Origin: Myrmaecium sp. VS I D KN 1
Lineage: Eukaryota > Ascomycota > Dothideomycetes > Valsariales > Valsariaceae
DNA: 64,000 nt
Direction of reading: 5' to 3'
Assembly (NCBI GenBank): GCA_019775845.1
Contig: JADQAV010000009.1
Span: 62,001-126,000, forward strand
The stretch's first letter is position 1, and every line of letters begins with the position of its first letter. Shown piece by piece: positions 2,828-54,821 of the stretch. The translations under genes and the position numbers were made by a program. The notes beneath the pieces were generated by a model. That model had not been told where the DNA came from. It searched no databases and was given only the letters and a program-made list of their open reading frames with translations.

Positions 2828-5036
2828 TCATTTTCTCATCCGCTTCCCCCCCGCCGCGCTCCCGTCGCTCAGCACGCTCGCGCTGCGCTTCTGGCCCGCC
2901 TGGCCAGCAGCCGCAGCGCCGGCATCATCGCCGGGGGTCGACGTCTCAGCGGCCGCTGCTGCTGTTGATGTTGTTGGCGGCTGCGGCGGTGGTGGTGCTG
3001 GGTCCTGATCAGCGGGCCGAGGGGCTGGGGTCGAGGGTTAGTATCCCGCTGTCCGGAAAAGAGGACGGAAGACGTACCATCCGTTGTATCTCCCCCCTGC
3101 TCCCCCTCCTCCTTCTTCGTCCCCGGCTCAGCAGCGACCTTGCCCTCACCTTCCTTCTCAGCACCATCAGCCCCCTCCGCCTCACCCTCCTTTCCCCGCT
3201 TCTCCGCCTCCACCCGCTCCCTCTCCGCCTCAAGGACCTTCACCTCCGCCTCCTCCTTCTCCCGGACCTTGCGCAAGTCCAGCAAGCGACCCACCTTCCC
3301 GATCAAGCCCTCGAACGCATGCGTGACCTTGTTCGTCGGCAGCGCGATCGCCTCGGGGACCCCCAGCTCCGCCAGCACCCCCGCGATCTTCTGCGTCTGC
3401 ACCTGGCTCTTCGCCTGCCGCAGCTTCAGCACCTTGTCCGTCCGGAACGTCACCCCGGACGTCAGCCGCTCGTGCGTCGTGATCCCGAACCGGTACTCGG
3501 CCCGCTGCGGCAGCTGCCGGATCGGCCCGGAGGGCGTCGCCGAGCTGGTCCCGCCGCTGCCCGCGCCGCCGCCCGCCGCTGCCGCCGCTGCCGCGGAGGA
3601 TCCGCCTTTCTTGGTGGATGCCCCGCCCGCGCCCGAGGTGATGGAGTCGCGGTGGCCGTGGGTGTTTCCAGCGGCGCCGTTGGCCGGGCTGCCGATGAGA
3701 TCGTTCGCGTTGAGCGAAAGGCGGGAGGCGTTGTTGGGGCCGGCCGCGCGTTTCCGGGAGCGGTCCTGCTGGAAGAGCTGTTGGAAGAGCTGCTGGAGGG
3801 CCTGGGAGGACTGGAAGTGGTGGGTGGTGGAGGCGGTGGTGGTGGTGGTGCCGTTGGCACCGTTCGCGCCATTCGCGCCGTTCTGGTTCTGGTTCTGCGG
3901 CGTCGAGGTCTGCGGGATCTCGAGCCGGGCCCGGATCTCGGCGCGCTCGGCGTCGAGGCGGACGGCGGAGATGTTGATCCGTTGGAGCTCGGCGAGCAGG
4001 AACTCCTCCTCCTTGATCTCGTCCAGGGAGCGGGAGAGCAGGGCGGTCGCCAGCTTCTTCCTGTTCGTCTCCAGGACCGGGTCGAATCGGGAGAGCGTCT
4101 CGTGCAGGGCGAACTCGGCCGCGTCCATGTTCGAGATGGGCGTCTGAAACTCCATGCACTTGGCGCAAATGCTGTAGTATCTCGCCTTCATGTCTTCCAT
4201 CGTCCGCGGCTTCGGCGCGGCGGACGCCAACGTGAGGGCGGTGCTATCACCCTGTGTATTCTCCGTTTTGGTCGGCGGTTGCCAATCGTACCGATCCGCG
4301 ATGATCGCCCAGCGCTGGTAGTACTCCTTCACCAGCCCAATCAGGTAGTCCGTCTCCTCCTTGCTCCAGTCGTCGCTCCGCAGATAGAGATCGTACTGCT
4401 CGTCCGTATATTGCGGTCCGGGGATCTGAAAGTTGTACTTCGCGAACTCGTAATCCGTCTCCACGGGGACATCCTGCGCCGCGCCGTCCACCTCCATCCG
4501 CTCCTCAGCAGCAGCAGCACCACCACCCTCCTCCCCTCCCACATTCGGTCGATTCACCGGTTTCCGCCGCCAATGCTTCAAGATCAATCCATCGCTACGC
4601 GCCGGGTTGACGAACGGCACCCGTACCCTGTAGGTCGAACGCGTCAGCACATCCAAGTCCCCGGGGAGGCCCTTCTTCTCACCGCAAAGCCTTACCAAGG
4701 TTTCGCCGGCCCCAAGCTCTTCACTCGCTTGCTCTTATACAGCTTATTCTCATCCAGGATCGCGATCGGCGGCGCCCGCTCGCCCATCAGGGCCGCGACT
4801 TCTCGGTTGATGCCAGCTGCCAACGAAAGAAGGAAGAAAAAAACGGCCAATGTCAGCTGCCCGTGACCAAAAGCAAAATCAATCCGACTTGACGTACACA
4901 TGCGCGGCTTGGGGAACGTCGGTTTGGCCTTCGGTTTCGGGATGGGCGGCGCCTTGGCCGCCGCCGCCGTCGTCGTCGTCGTCACCGCGTCGCCGGGCAG
5001 GCCCAGCATGTCCTGCATGTCCTTGCGACTCGCCAT
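2828..5036 (-). CDS. swc4: SWR1-complex protein 4 / DMAP1 homologue (Swc4)
   Basis: Subunit shared by the SWR1 (H2A.Z exchange) and NuA4 (histone acetyltransferase) complexes, acting in the nucleus. Model: exons 5036-4898, 4816-4696, 4627-3078 and 3024-2828; introns of 81, 68 and 53 nt with GTACGT, GTAAGG and GTACGT donors. The spliced CDS is 2007 nt, 668 residues, and phases close. The second splice gives the family-typical sequence PWVRVPFVNPARSDG. A SANT-type segment lies near residues 172-203 (DDWSKEETDYL...). A Gly/Ala/Ser low-complexity middle and a Glu/Lys-rich stretch follow. The last splice, with a CTAAC branch site, restores a basic C-terminus with QKRSASVLSDGS and KRMRK, as in other fungal Swc4. 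Reading on without that intron gives a non-homologous tail. Confidence 0.93.
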
Positions 5037-23224: not shown

Positions 23225-25228
23225 TGTGGGAAAACGGTCGATACGGCAAGAATGCGGTCAAGGTTCCCCGGACTTGCAACTAGGGCCCAGCTCTCGATGG
23301 CGGGGGGGGGAGAGCGTGGTTTGGTGGTCGAGGCGCGGCAAGAAGGAGAGAGACTCCGAGATCAAGGTAGATATCGGAGGGCGGACTGAAGCCTCTTGCA
23401 ATAATTCACGATATGGACGAGGTCGGGAGGTGATCGGAGGGGATATTCGCAGCGTGCCAGAGGGAAGAGAGCCACCTTGACCTTGGAACGAAACGGGCCA
23501 CCTTGGAGTTCCAGGGCCGTAGCCGGATGCGGTATCGCGCGGTTACAGGCTTGGCGGGCGGGTCGGAGCCTCCCCCTCGTACACAAAACCGCCGTCCTCC
23601 TCCGACGAATTTTCTTTCCTCTCCATCCACGCCAGCATCGAAAAACAATAATTCACATTACTGTTACGGCGGCTTCCTGCCACACCACTGGCGAGGCCGT
23701 TTTCGCGCTGAGCGGAGAGGAGGTTTCGACCCATGGCTGGGCGCCTGGTTTGGAAGGGTCATTCTGACCCTCGTGAGAAATTGGGAATCAGCAGAGGTTA
23801 CATTGCCGTTCGTTACTTGAATGTCATTTTATTCATTGTACTTGTCCACATACGATCTGATATTGATCATTCCACAGATTGATTGCCGTCTTGCTTTGCT
23901 TGTTGTGAACCGCATTCCGTGTAAGGGTGAGCTCCATGCTGCTCCGCTGCAAGATATACCACAAGTCCTGTTCCGTCACAGCGATGCTGTTACGGTGCGA
24001 GTAGTGATTGCATGGCTCCTGAATCCGTAGGACGGATCACAGATAGCGGTCCGTCGTTCTCTGGTCCTCATTTAACTTTCCCTATACCTGATTAATCAAA
24101 GAAGGCTTCGAATTTCATTTTTTGTGAATAATTTCCTTTTCTTCCTCTTCTCACACAGTACAATCTCAGAGTCCAGCCCTGTGTGAACGATTCATGCTTC
24201 GTCTACATTTCTTCTTTCGAAATCGCTTGTATCAATACGTCATGGCTGTTTGTTCCGTCCATATTTCCATTACCGCTGCTGGCGGACACAGACAGCTGCA
24301 TCGAACGACTGTTCGCGGGTCAAGCGGTTAGAGAGTTGCAATATGACTCTTCCTGGCTGCTTTTTCGAGGGTCGTCCAGTCAAGCACACAAACGTCGATA
24401 AAGCTCTCATCTGCACTCATATATACGGGTTTCTGGCCTTATTTCACCGTTTTACTCCTATATATGCGACTCAATTCTCTCCAGTCTCTCTGTCTACTTT
24501 CCTGCCGATTCTTTGATGCTGCGTTGAGACAGCCGACATCACTTTCCATTTGTCCTCTCAATCAATCAAAGCTCAACTATCTTGACTTTAAACTTCCTAC
24601 TTGCACGTGCTGCTTGCCCATTTGCACGCTCGATCAGGCCTATTAGCTGCTGCGGAAAAATAGTGGGTCAGGCAGACGGCGAGCGCAGGCACTACGGTCC
24701 TTGACGGAGAGGCGACTAGCGAGGGGGGAATCGGGATATGGCATCCTGCCATACTGCGAAGGGCCACTCTACGAAGAAGGCCCAAATATTCCACAACACT
24801 GCGGTACAATCGCCCTAAAAACCATGGCAAGTTGTTCAGCATGCTGAGTTGCCTATATCTGATGCTTTCTTTGAACCTTCCTGCCCTCGTTTGGTGATGG
24901 CCTATGTCGCTGTTCTCTCACCTGTTGCGGTCGATTTCTTGGGCAAGGCTGTACGGCTTCACCTTCCCTTCGTCACTGTCGGTCTCAAGCAGAGTCAACC
25001 ACTGCCTGACAATATGAAGAGGCATGCAGGAAGCGAACGTCGCCTATCCTCCACTATATAAAGGCCTCCTTCCTCCTCACTCTCTTTCCTTTCCTTCCTC
25101 TTCGTCCAACCGCCCATCCTCGTTCCTCCGCTTCTTCTCTTCTCTTTCAGCCAGACCAGCACATTTTGATAATCACTGCTAGTCCCTTCCCATACCTGCT
25201 CAGCAAATTTTGATAATCCCTGCGAGCT
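23225..25228. other. Divergent promoter region
   Basis: About 2 kb between sec23 and the Myb-like gene. The middle (23820-24650) is AT-richer, without a conserved frame. A pyrimidine-rich leader (25065-25160) precedes the right-hand gene. Confidence 0.55.
25157..25226 (+). repeat. Duplicated 26-bp leader element
   Basis: Two copies of CAGCAMATTTTGATAATC followed by MCTGCKAG, at 25157-25182 and 25201-25226, with three mismatches in 26 bp and a 44-bp period. The second copy ends two bases before the start codon at 25229, so both probably lie in the 5' UTR or core promoter. Confidence 0.8.
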
Positions 25229-27542
25229 ATGAATTCCCGCTTCAACAACTACCCCGAAGAGCTGCTGGCGGCTACTTCGACCATTGAACCGTGGGCCCTC
25301 TGGATGGGCGAGCCCTCCGCGTTGCCTGGTGCACCGGAGCTTGACCACGTTCCTCTTTCTGCTGAGCACAAGCGGTTCGTCGTCGAGGATGCTGACGAAT
25401 ATGCCTACTACACCCATTATCCGGGACCGTTCGTTCAGTCGGTGGACGTCGGTGACGCTCAGTTGAACCGGTTCAACTGCCAGCCACTCCAGCCTGCCTT
25501 CACTAATGACGCCGAATACCGGAAGTACTGCCCCGACCCCTCCGAAGAGTTTCTGAAGTTCTGCCAGCAGACCGGGAATAGCCAGGTCCTGCAGCTTTGG
25601 AACCAGTTTCAGCAAAACCATCCCTCGGCTTCTTCAGCTTCTACCTCATCGATTCCAAACCCTGGATATGGCGGCGCCTCTACTTCTGCAGCATCGTCCG
25701 CTTCGTCCGTCATTGCAACGGACGACCAGGCTGTACTACTGACCGCTCCGGCTCATCATCCCAGCACCGGCGGCAAGTCCGTCTCAATTGACTGGGAAGC
25801 TGAAGGTACGCTGTCGATCCTAACGTGTCTAAACCACACCATCGAATCTCTCTCTGACATGCCATACAGAATACTCGGAGGCAGACTCAAGCCCGAGCGC
25901 ATACTCTAGCCCATGTCCAACCCCGACCCCAAGTCCGTCCCCCAGTCCGCCACCAAGTCCCACACCTGCCCGTCGTCGGAGGCAGCGCGCCAACAAGCGC
26001 GCACTGAAGACGTCGGCGCAAGCCACCGGACCGACCACCGCCGACGAAGCTCCTCGCCAGAGCTACGGCGGGAAGTCCTACGGTGGCAAGAGTGTGGGCG
26101 GCAAGTCATATGGCGGCAAGTCATACAATGGAGAATCGTCCAACGGAAAGCGCGTCGGCGGCAAGAGCGTGGGCGGCAAGTCCCACGGCGGAGATTCTGA
26201 CGACGAAGAGAGCGTCAGCAGGCCTTCCTATGGTGGAAAGAGAGTCGGCGGCAAGAGCTACGGCGGGAAGAACCTCGCCAGCATTGCACCCCGCCCGACC
26301 ACGGGCGGCAAGGGCCCTCGCAAGTCGGTTGGGGGCAAGGCGCCCCGCAAGTCGGTCTCCGGAAAACCGCCTCGCAAGTTGGTGGGCGGAAAAGCACCTC
26401 GCAAGACCGTCGGCGGAAAGGCACCCCGCAAGACCGTCGGCGGAAAAGCGCCTCGCAAGGCACCCGTGTCCGCCACACCTTCATCCTCCTCGGAGCCTCC
26501 CGCAAACAACGACCCGAACGGGCCGGCCATCCTGCCTCTGAACCCACGCCCAGCCCACATGACGGCGGCGCAGATCGCCGCAACCGTGGCCAGCCTGCCG
26601 ACGCTGCGCACGCCGAACAAGTGGGAGCCGGCGGAGAACGGGGCGTGCCTGCAGGGGATGCTGGAGGCGTACTACCTGCGCCCGCAGCACGGCGCCGGCG
26701 CCGGCATCGAACAGCGCTTCCGCGACGTCGCCGCCCGGATGGCGGAGCTTCTGGGTGGCCGCCACGCCGGCCGGACTGGCGCGGCTGTTAAGAATCAGTG
26801 GAATCGGTACCTTCGTGTCTTGTCTGGTTTCGATGAGCGGAAGGTCACGGGTGGCAGCTTGAGTGTGAGCCGCCTTAATGGCACGGTGGATGTGGTCACC
26901 GTCGCTGGACCGGCGGTGCCGCTTGCCACTGAGCAGCCAATGGAGGTGGAGAGTGAGAATGATGCTGAGGCTGTGGAGTATGACTGCGTCGATTATGAAA
27001 GCGAGATCAGCGAGGATGAATACAGCATGGACGAGTCTGAATGCGACGGTGATGAAGCCGAGATCGAGGTCGACGAATGCAGCGAGGATGATGAGGCTGC
27101 TGAGGAAGGAGGTTATGAGGAGTATGAGGAAGAGGAGGAGGAAGAGTATGAAGAGTATCCAGAAGGATATGAAGAGTATGGAGAAGGGTATGGTGAGTAT
27201 GAGGAGTATGACGAAGAAGAAGAGGAGGAGGAAGAAGTGAGGCCCAGGAAAAGGGCGAGGTTTGTTACTCCGGCGCTGGCGTCGGAGGACAACGAGGAAG
27301 AGGAGGAGGATAACAAGAGTTATCTGGACAACCAAGATGAAGAGGAAGAGGAAGACCACTACGAAGACGATGCTAATGCCTATTATGACACCGAGGCTTC
27401 CTCGTCTGCTCCCATGGCGTCTTCAGGCCTGGCAAGTACAAGCGATGAAGACCTGACTGCTGCGCAGACTTTGGCAGATGATGAGGCCCTAGCCAGAGCC
27501 CTTATGGCTGAAGAACTCGGTCTCAGGAAGAGGAAGAGGTAG
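25229..27542 (+). CDS. Myb/SANT-like protein with histone H3-tail-like repeats and acidic tail
   Basis: Not a family I can name. Exons 25229-25805 and 25870-27542, 64-nt intron with GTACG donor, 749 residues. Order: a Tyr/Pro/Glu-rich N-terminus (1-120), Ser-rich stretch, Pro/Ser linker with a basic RRRRQRANKR patch, YGGKS-type repeats (257-327), six 9-residue units of the form GGKAPRKTV (338-389), a Myb/SANT-like region (about 440-510: KWEPAEN...IEQRFRDVAARM...GRTGAAVKNQWNRYLR), then an Asp/Glu/Tyr-rich tail with a PRKRARF patch. The composition suggests a nuclear, DNA- or chromatin-associated protein. The H3-like units match H3 residues 8-18 at 9 of 11 positions. Function and homologues are unknown to me; that it is one gene rests on matching exon phase and the continuous frame. 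Confidence 0.82.
26304..26459 (+). repeat. 27-bp coding tandem repeat (H3-tail-like units)
   Basis: Five full 27-bp units and a final 21-bp unit encode GGKGPRKSV, GGKAPRKSV, SGKPPRKLV, GGKAPRKTV, GGKAPRKTV and GGKAPRK. All six keep GKxP and PRK. Copies differ at many synonymous third positions (for example AAG/AAA, CCC/CCT, GCA/GCG). Confidence 0.9.
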
Positions 27543-54302: not shown

Positions 54303-54821
54303 ATGCCAGTCCCCACTCCCCCCGGCGACCACGACAAGTCGACGGGCACGACAGCCACGGCGACCACGGCGTCCACGACGGCCAGGACGACCACGACGGT
54401 CAGGACGACCACGACCACGACGACCGTGACGACCGCGACGACCACACCGAGGACAAACGGCGATTCAAGGAACAATGACACACCGAGGATAAATGGCACT
54501 GAGCCCCGCCTTACTATCCGCGAAGCGCTCGACATCGTCCGGGACAGCGAGGAGAGCGTGGACGAGACGACGGCCGCCTTCCTCGAGCGGCAACTGGACG
54601 CGCTCTGGAGGCGGCTTAACGCGCAGCCGAACAGCTACAACTTCACCCTGGAAGAGTTCTCGCTCTTCAACTTCTACCGGTCCCGCTTCCCGAACTCCGA
54701 GGTCGCCCGCCGGGCCATCGCGCGCTACTGGGACAACCTGCCCGACCCGGGTCCGAATGCGGCGCCTCCCACGCCCGGTTCCTCGGGAAGTAGTACGGAA
54801 CATACGGATAGTAGTACTTAA
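54303..54821 (+). CDS. Hypothetical small protein with Thr-rich N-terminus
   Basis: Single exon, 172 residues, ATG at 54303. Residues about 12-60 are Thr/Ala-rich and come from an imperfect ACGACC/ACCACG repeat. The second half is ordinary sequence that looks folded: RLTIREALDIVRDSEES, an amphipathic helix FLERQLDALWRRLNAQ, then FTLEEFSLFNFYRSRFP and RRAIARYWDNLP. There is no signal peptide. I recall similar short fungal proteins of unknown function but cannot name a domain. Confidence 0.6.
   Translation: MPVPTPPGDHDKSTGTTATATTASTTARTTTTVRTTTTTTTVTTATTTPRTNGDSRNNDTPRINGTEPRLTIREALDIVRDSEESVDETTAAFLERQLDALWRRLNAQPNSYNFTLEEFSLFNFYRSRFPNSEVARRAIARYWDNLPDPGPNAAPPTPGSSGSSTEHTDSST

Follow-up and report, generated by a model that had tools for sequence, protein, structure and literature searches.

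A predicted protein of the ascomycete Myrmaecium sp. contains six tandem units of the form [GS]-G-K-x-P-R-K, repeated every nine residues, which resemble the tail of histone H3 around K14 and K18 beyond chance expectation, with 8 to 10 of 11 positions identical to the organism's own H3 at six junctions. As far as the sequence allows a judgement, the array is at present a resemblance with modest evidence of constraint. That it constitutes a multivalent array for Gcn5-type acetylation, the explanation we prefer, falls somewhat short of an even chance, and the reading as an ordinary basic linker stands level with it. The gene lies on the plus strand of a window of 64,000 nucleotides, the window being the whole stretch of DNA that was analysed, and has the following features:

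25229-27542, plus strand: predicted gene of 749 amino acids; coding sequence in two exons, 25229-25805 and 25870-27542, with the ATG at 25229 and the frame of exon 2 open throughout
25806-25869, plus strand: GT-AG intron of 64 nt, GTACGC...ATACAG
25971-26000, plus strand: basic cluster RRRRQRANKR, residues 227-236, read from the sequence
26061-26270, plus strand: interrupted array of 5-residue units of the type S-[YV]-G-G-K, residues 257-326, with GGK but without APRK
26286-26312, plus strand: degenerate 9-residue unit APRPTTGGK, residues 332-340, read from the sequence and overlapping the first GGK of the H3-like array
26304-26459, plus strand: H3-like array of six [GS]-G-K-x-P-R-K units with a period of nine, residues 338-389, from translation and TRF
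26553-26876, plus strand: Myb/SANT-like helical domain, residues 421-528, with 50-53% identity to one paralogue and below the Pfam cut-off
26868-27452, plus strand: acidic tail, residues 526-720, with a net charge of -75 and 82 D/E
27525-27539, plus strand: C-terminal basic RKRKR, read from the sequence

The intron is one of four in-frame GT/AG pairs and was picked on its splice sites; another choice shifts the residue numbering and leaves the frame of the array unaffected. TATATA is found at 25055, upstream of the ATG. The N-terminal part of about 190 residues is without a Pfam match, and a search of the organism's own genome with the N-terminal 192 residues returned the protein itself and one match at E 0.104, but no second copy. 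Between this part and the upstream repeat array lies a Ser/Pro-rich stretch with RRRRQRANKR, which we take to resemble a nuclear localisation signal; besides the array, the protein has three basic clusters of this kind (residues 227-236, 651-656, and 745-749) and is probably nuclear. The linker containing the array is probably disordered, as judged from a charge-hydropathy sum, and carries a net charge of +19 over residues 332-390, so that intramolecular pairing with the acidic tail is possible. The stretch encoding the acidic tail includes a 21-nt repeat at 27141-27201, and the C-terminal DDEALARALMAEELG (window 27477-27521, residues 729-743) presumably resembles a degenerate ubiquitin-interacting motif.

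Translation of 26304-26459 yields the units GGKGPRKSV, GGKAPRKSV, SGKPPRKLV, GGKAPRKTV, GGKAPRKTV, and GGKAPRK, which bears out the first-pass annotation both in its coordinates and in its description of residues 338-389 as six 9-residue units. By TRF, the array has a period of 27 and 5.5 copies (26310-26459); repeats with a 15-nt period adjoin it, and a repeat with a 21-nt period occurs in the same gene. The annotation had also matched the array to histone H3 8-18 at 9 of 11 positions and proposed a comparison with the organism's own H3 (gene at G000 C17:41524, L001). In this comparison the best junction, RKSVGGKAPRK (residues 343-353), is identical to H3 8-18 at 10 of 11 positions, three further junctions (starting at residues 361, 370, and 379) at 9, and two (334 and 352) at 8; the earlier observation is thus confirmed and is a little stronger than stated. 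Both G-K-x-P, with G, A, or P as the variable residue, and P-R-K occur in all six units, as had been claimed; unit 3 reads SGKPPRK. The lysine of the GGK segment is always K and never R (6/6). The asserted K9/K14/K18 spacing holds for K14 and K18, whose counterparts number six each; of K9-like lysines leading into GGK or SGK there are five, as the first junction, RPTTGGKGPRK, has P at the K9 place. Since the distance from K9 to K18 in H3 is nine residues, the K18-like lysine of one unit is at the same time the K9-like lysine of the next.

How readily such a likeness might arise was estimated by permutation. The figures hold for this one array, compared with the tails of H3 and H4 only, and are uncorrected for its having been singled out from the many features of the whole window. 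A permuted unit of nine residues reached at least 9 of 11 matches to own H3 in 0.0625% of 40,000 permutations, each scored by its highest 11-residue identity with the 30 windows that cover residues 1-40 of own H3, and in 0.070% of 60,000 when 20 own H4 tail windows were added (0.0625% with the H4 trimmed of two intron-derived residues). When S-V-G-G-K was kept constant, since it already occurs in the upstream array, four residues drawn at random sufficed in 0.16% with the composition of residues 180-420 and in 0.55% with that of residues 331-390. Across the genome (25.66 Mb in 66 contigs), a six-frame search with a DNA pattern for GGKxPRK produced eight matches, against four for a reversed control pattern. 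Five of the eight lie in the array and one in H3; of the other two, one is GGKEPRK, within a 183-codon frame before its likely start codon, and one actually reads GGKTPSK. Exact GGKAPRK was found in two genes, those of H3 and of the array protein, although a copy split by an intron would escape this search. No further array of this kind was found in the own genome, where the array as query returned itself and a stretch overlapping its own start (E 5.55), and the upstream array returned itself and one match at E 0.196. Histone H3 peptides ranked first in a PDB sequence search with residues 178-521, at a non-significant E of about 0.1, which agrees with the resemblance. The doubled pattern GGKxPRK-xx-GGKxPRK had no match in genome_contigs, an H3-free prokaryote/virus comparison in which fewer than one was expected by chance and which is hence uninformative; GKxPRK-xxx-GKxPRK had none in genome_contigs and viral_contigs, which is equally uninformative, the permuted control also giving none in viral_contigs. 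Among 25 pattern matches of the array and 22 of the Myb-like domain in viral_contigs, none was confirmed as a relative.

Comparison of the six units with one another points to some constraint on the G-K-x-P core. All 25 pairwise differences in the columns G2, K3, and P5 are synonymous, a count that overstates the evidence because the units are related duplicates; with a minimum of three independent changes in columns 2, 3, and 5, the probability of all being synonymous is 0.02, and with six it is 0.0005. The N/S ratio of the columns x, S, and V is 0.44 (0.60 if two codons after the array are counted), and over the units, flank excluded, pS is 0.51 and pN 0.12. That synonymous codons differ between units, as had been noted from the letters, is correct for G, K, A, and P, but R-K is encoded by CGC AAG in all six, so that its conservation is silent on selection. 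The GGK of the upstream array, examined as a control, is conserved as well (N/S ratio 0.29 over 12 triples) in an array that is not H3-like, so a conserved GGK is no specific mark of H3 mimicry. A shuffle test of unit differences gave 0/20,000, a figure that cannot serve as a p-value, since the copies share their departures from the consensus.

The array most likely arose by convergence, and there is no clear sign of a derivation from the H3 gene. Between K9 and K18, each unit shares 2 to 5 of 10 codons with own H3. The closest DNA alignment to own H3 without gaps, located at the 10/11 junction, agrees at 24 of 30 bases, a level that closely similar peptides encoded by GC-rich codons could reach in any case. 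The S-[YV]-G-G-K repeats, together with APRQSYGGK at residues 253-261, suggest that an APR(K) segment was added to a GGK repeat, with amplification following. The sole family member found in the own genome is a paralogue (L020 802-2505, minus strand; domain at G000 C60:31641-31934, on a 50.7-kb contig) that has the Myb-like domain in common, at 50 to 53% identity, and in which the H3-like array was not found. It carries a different Lys-rich stretch, KKPAKKTS...KAPGRPKP, after the Myb-like domain and thus on the other side than the array; its KAPGRPKP part is presumably AT-hook-like. The paralogue does without it, so the array is no general requirement of this domain family.

The label "Myb-like" given to the domain in the first-pass annotation corresponds to a sub-threshold Pfam assignment, and the best PDB profile match is c-Myb at E 0.56. 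Against PF00249, the window protein scored 13.2 bits over the whole sequence (E 0.1) and 16.2 bits for the domain (E 0.012), with a cut-off of 24.4; the paralogue scored 17.4 bits against PF13837 (E 0.006, cut-off 27), its domain alone giving E 0.00046. Neither the window protein nor the full paralogue thus has a Myb/SANT match above the Pfam cut-off. Folding of the domain from a single sequence was poor (pLDDT 53.9), and a two-sequence model predicted four helices (7-16, 28-44, 54-68, and 78-93; pLDDT 73.8, pTM 0.70). Foldseek returned 67 matches at E <= 10 for this model, none at E <= 0.001, with no Myb chain in the best 50 of the 67. DNA binding by the Myb-like domain is plausible but unproven.

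The genome's short introns, histone genes, DIM-5, and HP1-like gene suggest a filamentous ascomycete. Pfam matches were obtained for six of ten long frames scanned in the window, namely a ribonucleotide reductase, a DMAP1-type SANT protein, an AMP-binding enzyme, Sec23/24, Mediator Med5, and PNGase A, which are ordinary cellular genes. The DMAP1-type SANT/Myb-like gene (window 2869-4698, minus strand; PF16282, E 4.8e-28) is another chromatin gene. A tandem repeat, CACGACGAC, with periods of 9 and 24, occupies window positions 54347-54454. At L002 2067-2318 (minus strand), GGR/GGI repeats, RGGIRGGRVGGRIAGGRP, occur in an open frame near an H3-like exon; this exon may encode a CENP-A-like protein, with the GGR/GGI frame as its N-terminal tail.

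The first-pass annotation had proposed that the protein is a multivalent substrate or decoy for histone modifiers and readers, both of the Gcn5 and of the H3K9 type. The Gcn5-type half of this interpretation agrees with the data. G-K-x-P is a reported H3-recognition motif of GCN5, according to the available parts of two sources (PMC3344931, PMC4964394); it is present in 6/6 units with x variable, and the changes at G, K, and P are synonymous. The same organism encodes a Gcn5 with HAT and bromodomain (L022; E 3.7e-161 against a histone acetyltransferase of solved structure and 7.7e-70 against a chain named GCN5), which is among at least 11 bromodomain matches in the genome. Speaking against this reading are the conserved GGK of the upstream array, the paralogue in which the array was not found, the dependence among duplicated units, the invariant R-K codons, and the non-significant E of the H3 peptides in the PDB search. 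An ordinary linker rich in Gly, Pro, and Lys, serving by charge and flexibility in contacts with DNA or RNA, with the acidic tail, or in nuclear import, and resembling H3 by coincidence through descent from an older S-[YV]-G-G-K repeat, has the same chance of being right, just below even. Such a linker is consistent with an upstream array (257-326) that is not H3-like beyond GGK (best match 5 of 11), with the opposition of +19 in the array and -75 in the tail, and with the paralogue, where a different basic stretch on the other side of the domain takes no such form. However, charge alone requires neither P after the variable residue (6/6) nor K, never R, at GGK; the three other NLS-like clusters could serve import without the array; and the permuted-unit null of 0.0625-0.070% argues against coincidence. 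Neutral low-complexity expansion by slippage, with a motif devoid of function, is improbable: the period-27 array called by TRF, the neighbouring repeats with a 15-nt period, the repeat with a 21-nt period in the same gene, and the identical CGC AAG of the six units, which suggests recent or homogenised copies, would all be in keeping with it, but pS lies far above pN (flank excluded), and the residue changes in columns x, S, and V but not in G2, K3, and P5.

The H3K9 half of the earlier interpretation fits poorly. It would have DIM-5 methylate the K9-like lysines and HP1 bind them, so that heterochromatin factors are recruited or titrated. R-K-[S/T]-V-G is indeed found at three of the five K9-like junctions (343, 370, and 379), and the own genome has both a DIM-5 (E 3.7e-61 to the solved DIM-5) and an HP1-like gene, whose chromodomain (E 1.1e-7) extends across in-frame stops taken as an intron and whose chromoshadow domain gives E 5.9e-08. 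However, the K9-like lysines lie in P-R-K-[S/T/L]-V-[G/S] and not in A-R-K-S-T-G as in H3: V replaces T11 at all five K9-like junctions, so that the R-K-S-T-G context of a DIM-5 site including T11 does not occur, L is found at +1 at one junction and S in place of G12 at one, and the A7 place is taken by P in all six P-R-K segments. The ligand of HP1 is A-R-K with a small residue at A7, and the pocket for this residue would not suit P; no unit of the array provides that context. For Neurospora DIM-5 in vitro, only R8-G12 of H3 are required, R8A and G12P abolish activity, and S10A and T11A greatly reduce it, as reported in the available part of the study (PMC3248561). In the same part, A7M is described in the text as without significant effect on DIM-5, yet Table 2 marks a loss (PMC3248561); P at A7 may be harmless for this enzyme. 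Human SUV39H1 accepts at +2, besides T, only small residues such as A, G, and S, according to the accessible portion of a further source (PMC8303541). With V in place of T11 throughout, the array is expected to be a poor DIM-5 substrate, the variant described for DIM-5 in the available text being T11A and not T11V. The H3K9 pathway is thus present in the organism while the site looks poor, and the H3K9 reading is unlikely, with a very slim chance.

Under the Gcn5-type reading, a probably disordered basic linker would have acquired repeated copies of G-K-x-P-R-K, the motif around the K14/K18 acetyl acceptors of H3, and the SAGA acetyltransferase Gcn5 would acetylate several of the GKxP lysines. 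Acetylation would lower the positive charge and might thereby change the interaction of the array with DNA or with the acidic tail of the same protein. The acetylated array could then act as a multi-site ligand for bromodomains—those of Gcn5 itself, of chromatin remodellers, or of BET factors—wherever the Myb-like domain sits. The sequence itself shows the array, its fit to own H3, the synonymous changes at G, K, and P, and the genes for Gcn5 and other bromodomain proteins; acetylation and reader binding are inferred, as are nuclear location, disorder, and DNA binding. The most far-reaching form of this reading, in which a DNA-binding fungal protein carries in cis its own multivalent tail of the H3 K14/K18 type, acetylated by SAGA at up to six GKxP sites to provide a graded, cooperative, and nucleosome-independent bromodomain docking platform, is tentative and rather doubtful.

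Compared with own H3 8-18, to which it is alike at 10 of 11 positions at the best junction, the array differs by V for T11, P for A7, its six copies, and its location in a non-histone protein. The automethylation sites of G9a and GLP lie in an A-R-K-T context, which the array does not have. They, too, are H3-like motifs in chromatin proteins, where they create an HP1 binding site, but only one or two K9-type sites occur per protein (G9a K185 and K239; GLP K205), as described in the available part of the source (PMC9768651). EZHIP/CATACOMB, a mammalian H3K27M-like inhibitor of PRC2, is likewise a non-histone protein with an H3-like stretch and with tandem repeats elsewhere; unlike the array, according to the accessible text, it has one mimic motif apart from its repeats, mimics K27M, and inhibits PRC2 (PMC12713659). 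The histone-mimicking linker of BAZ2B and K72ac of the hepatitis delta antigen, a bromodomain ligand, are further cases of a histone-like segment outside the histones, either interacting with a histone reader or located next to one, but these are animal or viral, and the available portions of the sources mention no tandem array (PMC5663869, PMC13377155). FgSge1 of Fusarium graminearum is a fungal DNA-binding protein that recruits SAGA/Gcn5 to promoters, but it acts via Ada2 binding, and no H3-like array is mentioned in the accessible part of the report (PMC13205826).

In the open-licence literature, no account of a GGKAPRK repeat in a fungus was found, nor were VGGKAPRK, APRKTVGG, and APRKSVGG; no H3-like tandem-repeat histone mimic of this kind appeared among the matches listed, as judged from titles and the beginnings of abstracts. 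We know of no earlier tandem, repeat-built mimic of a histone tail. The array is compact enough for a direct peptide assay, and it would test whether recruitment of bromodomain complexes is possible without nucleosomes. Known cellular histone mimics, as far as described in the available parts of the sources (PMC12713659, PMC9768651), have one or two sites per protein; a tandem array would let valence vary. If its function is real, the array would be a new form of an already known histone mimicry.
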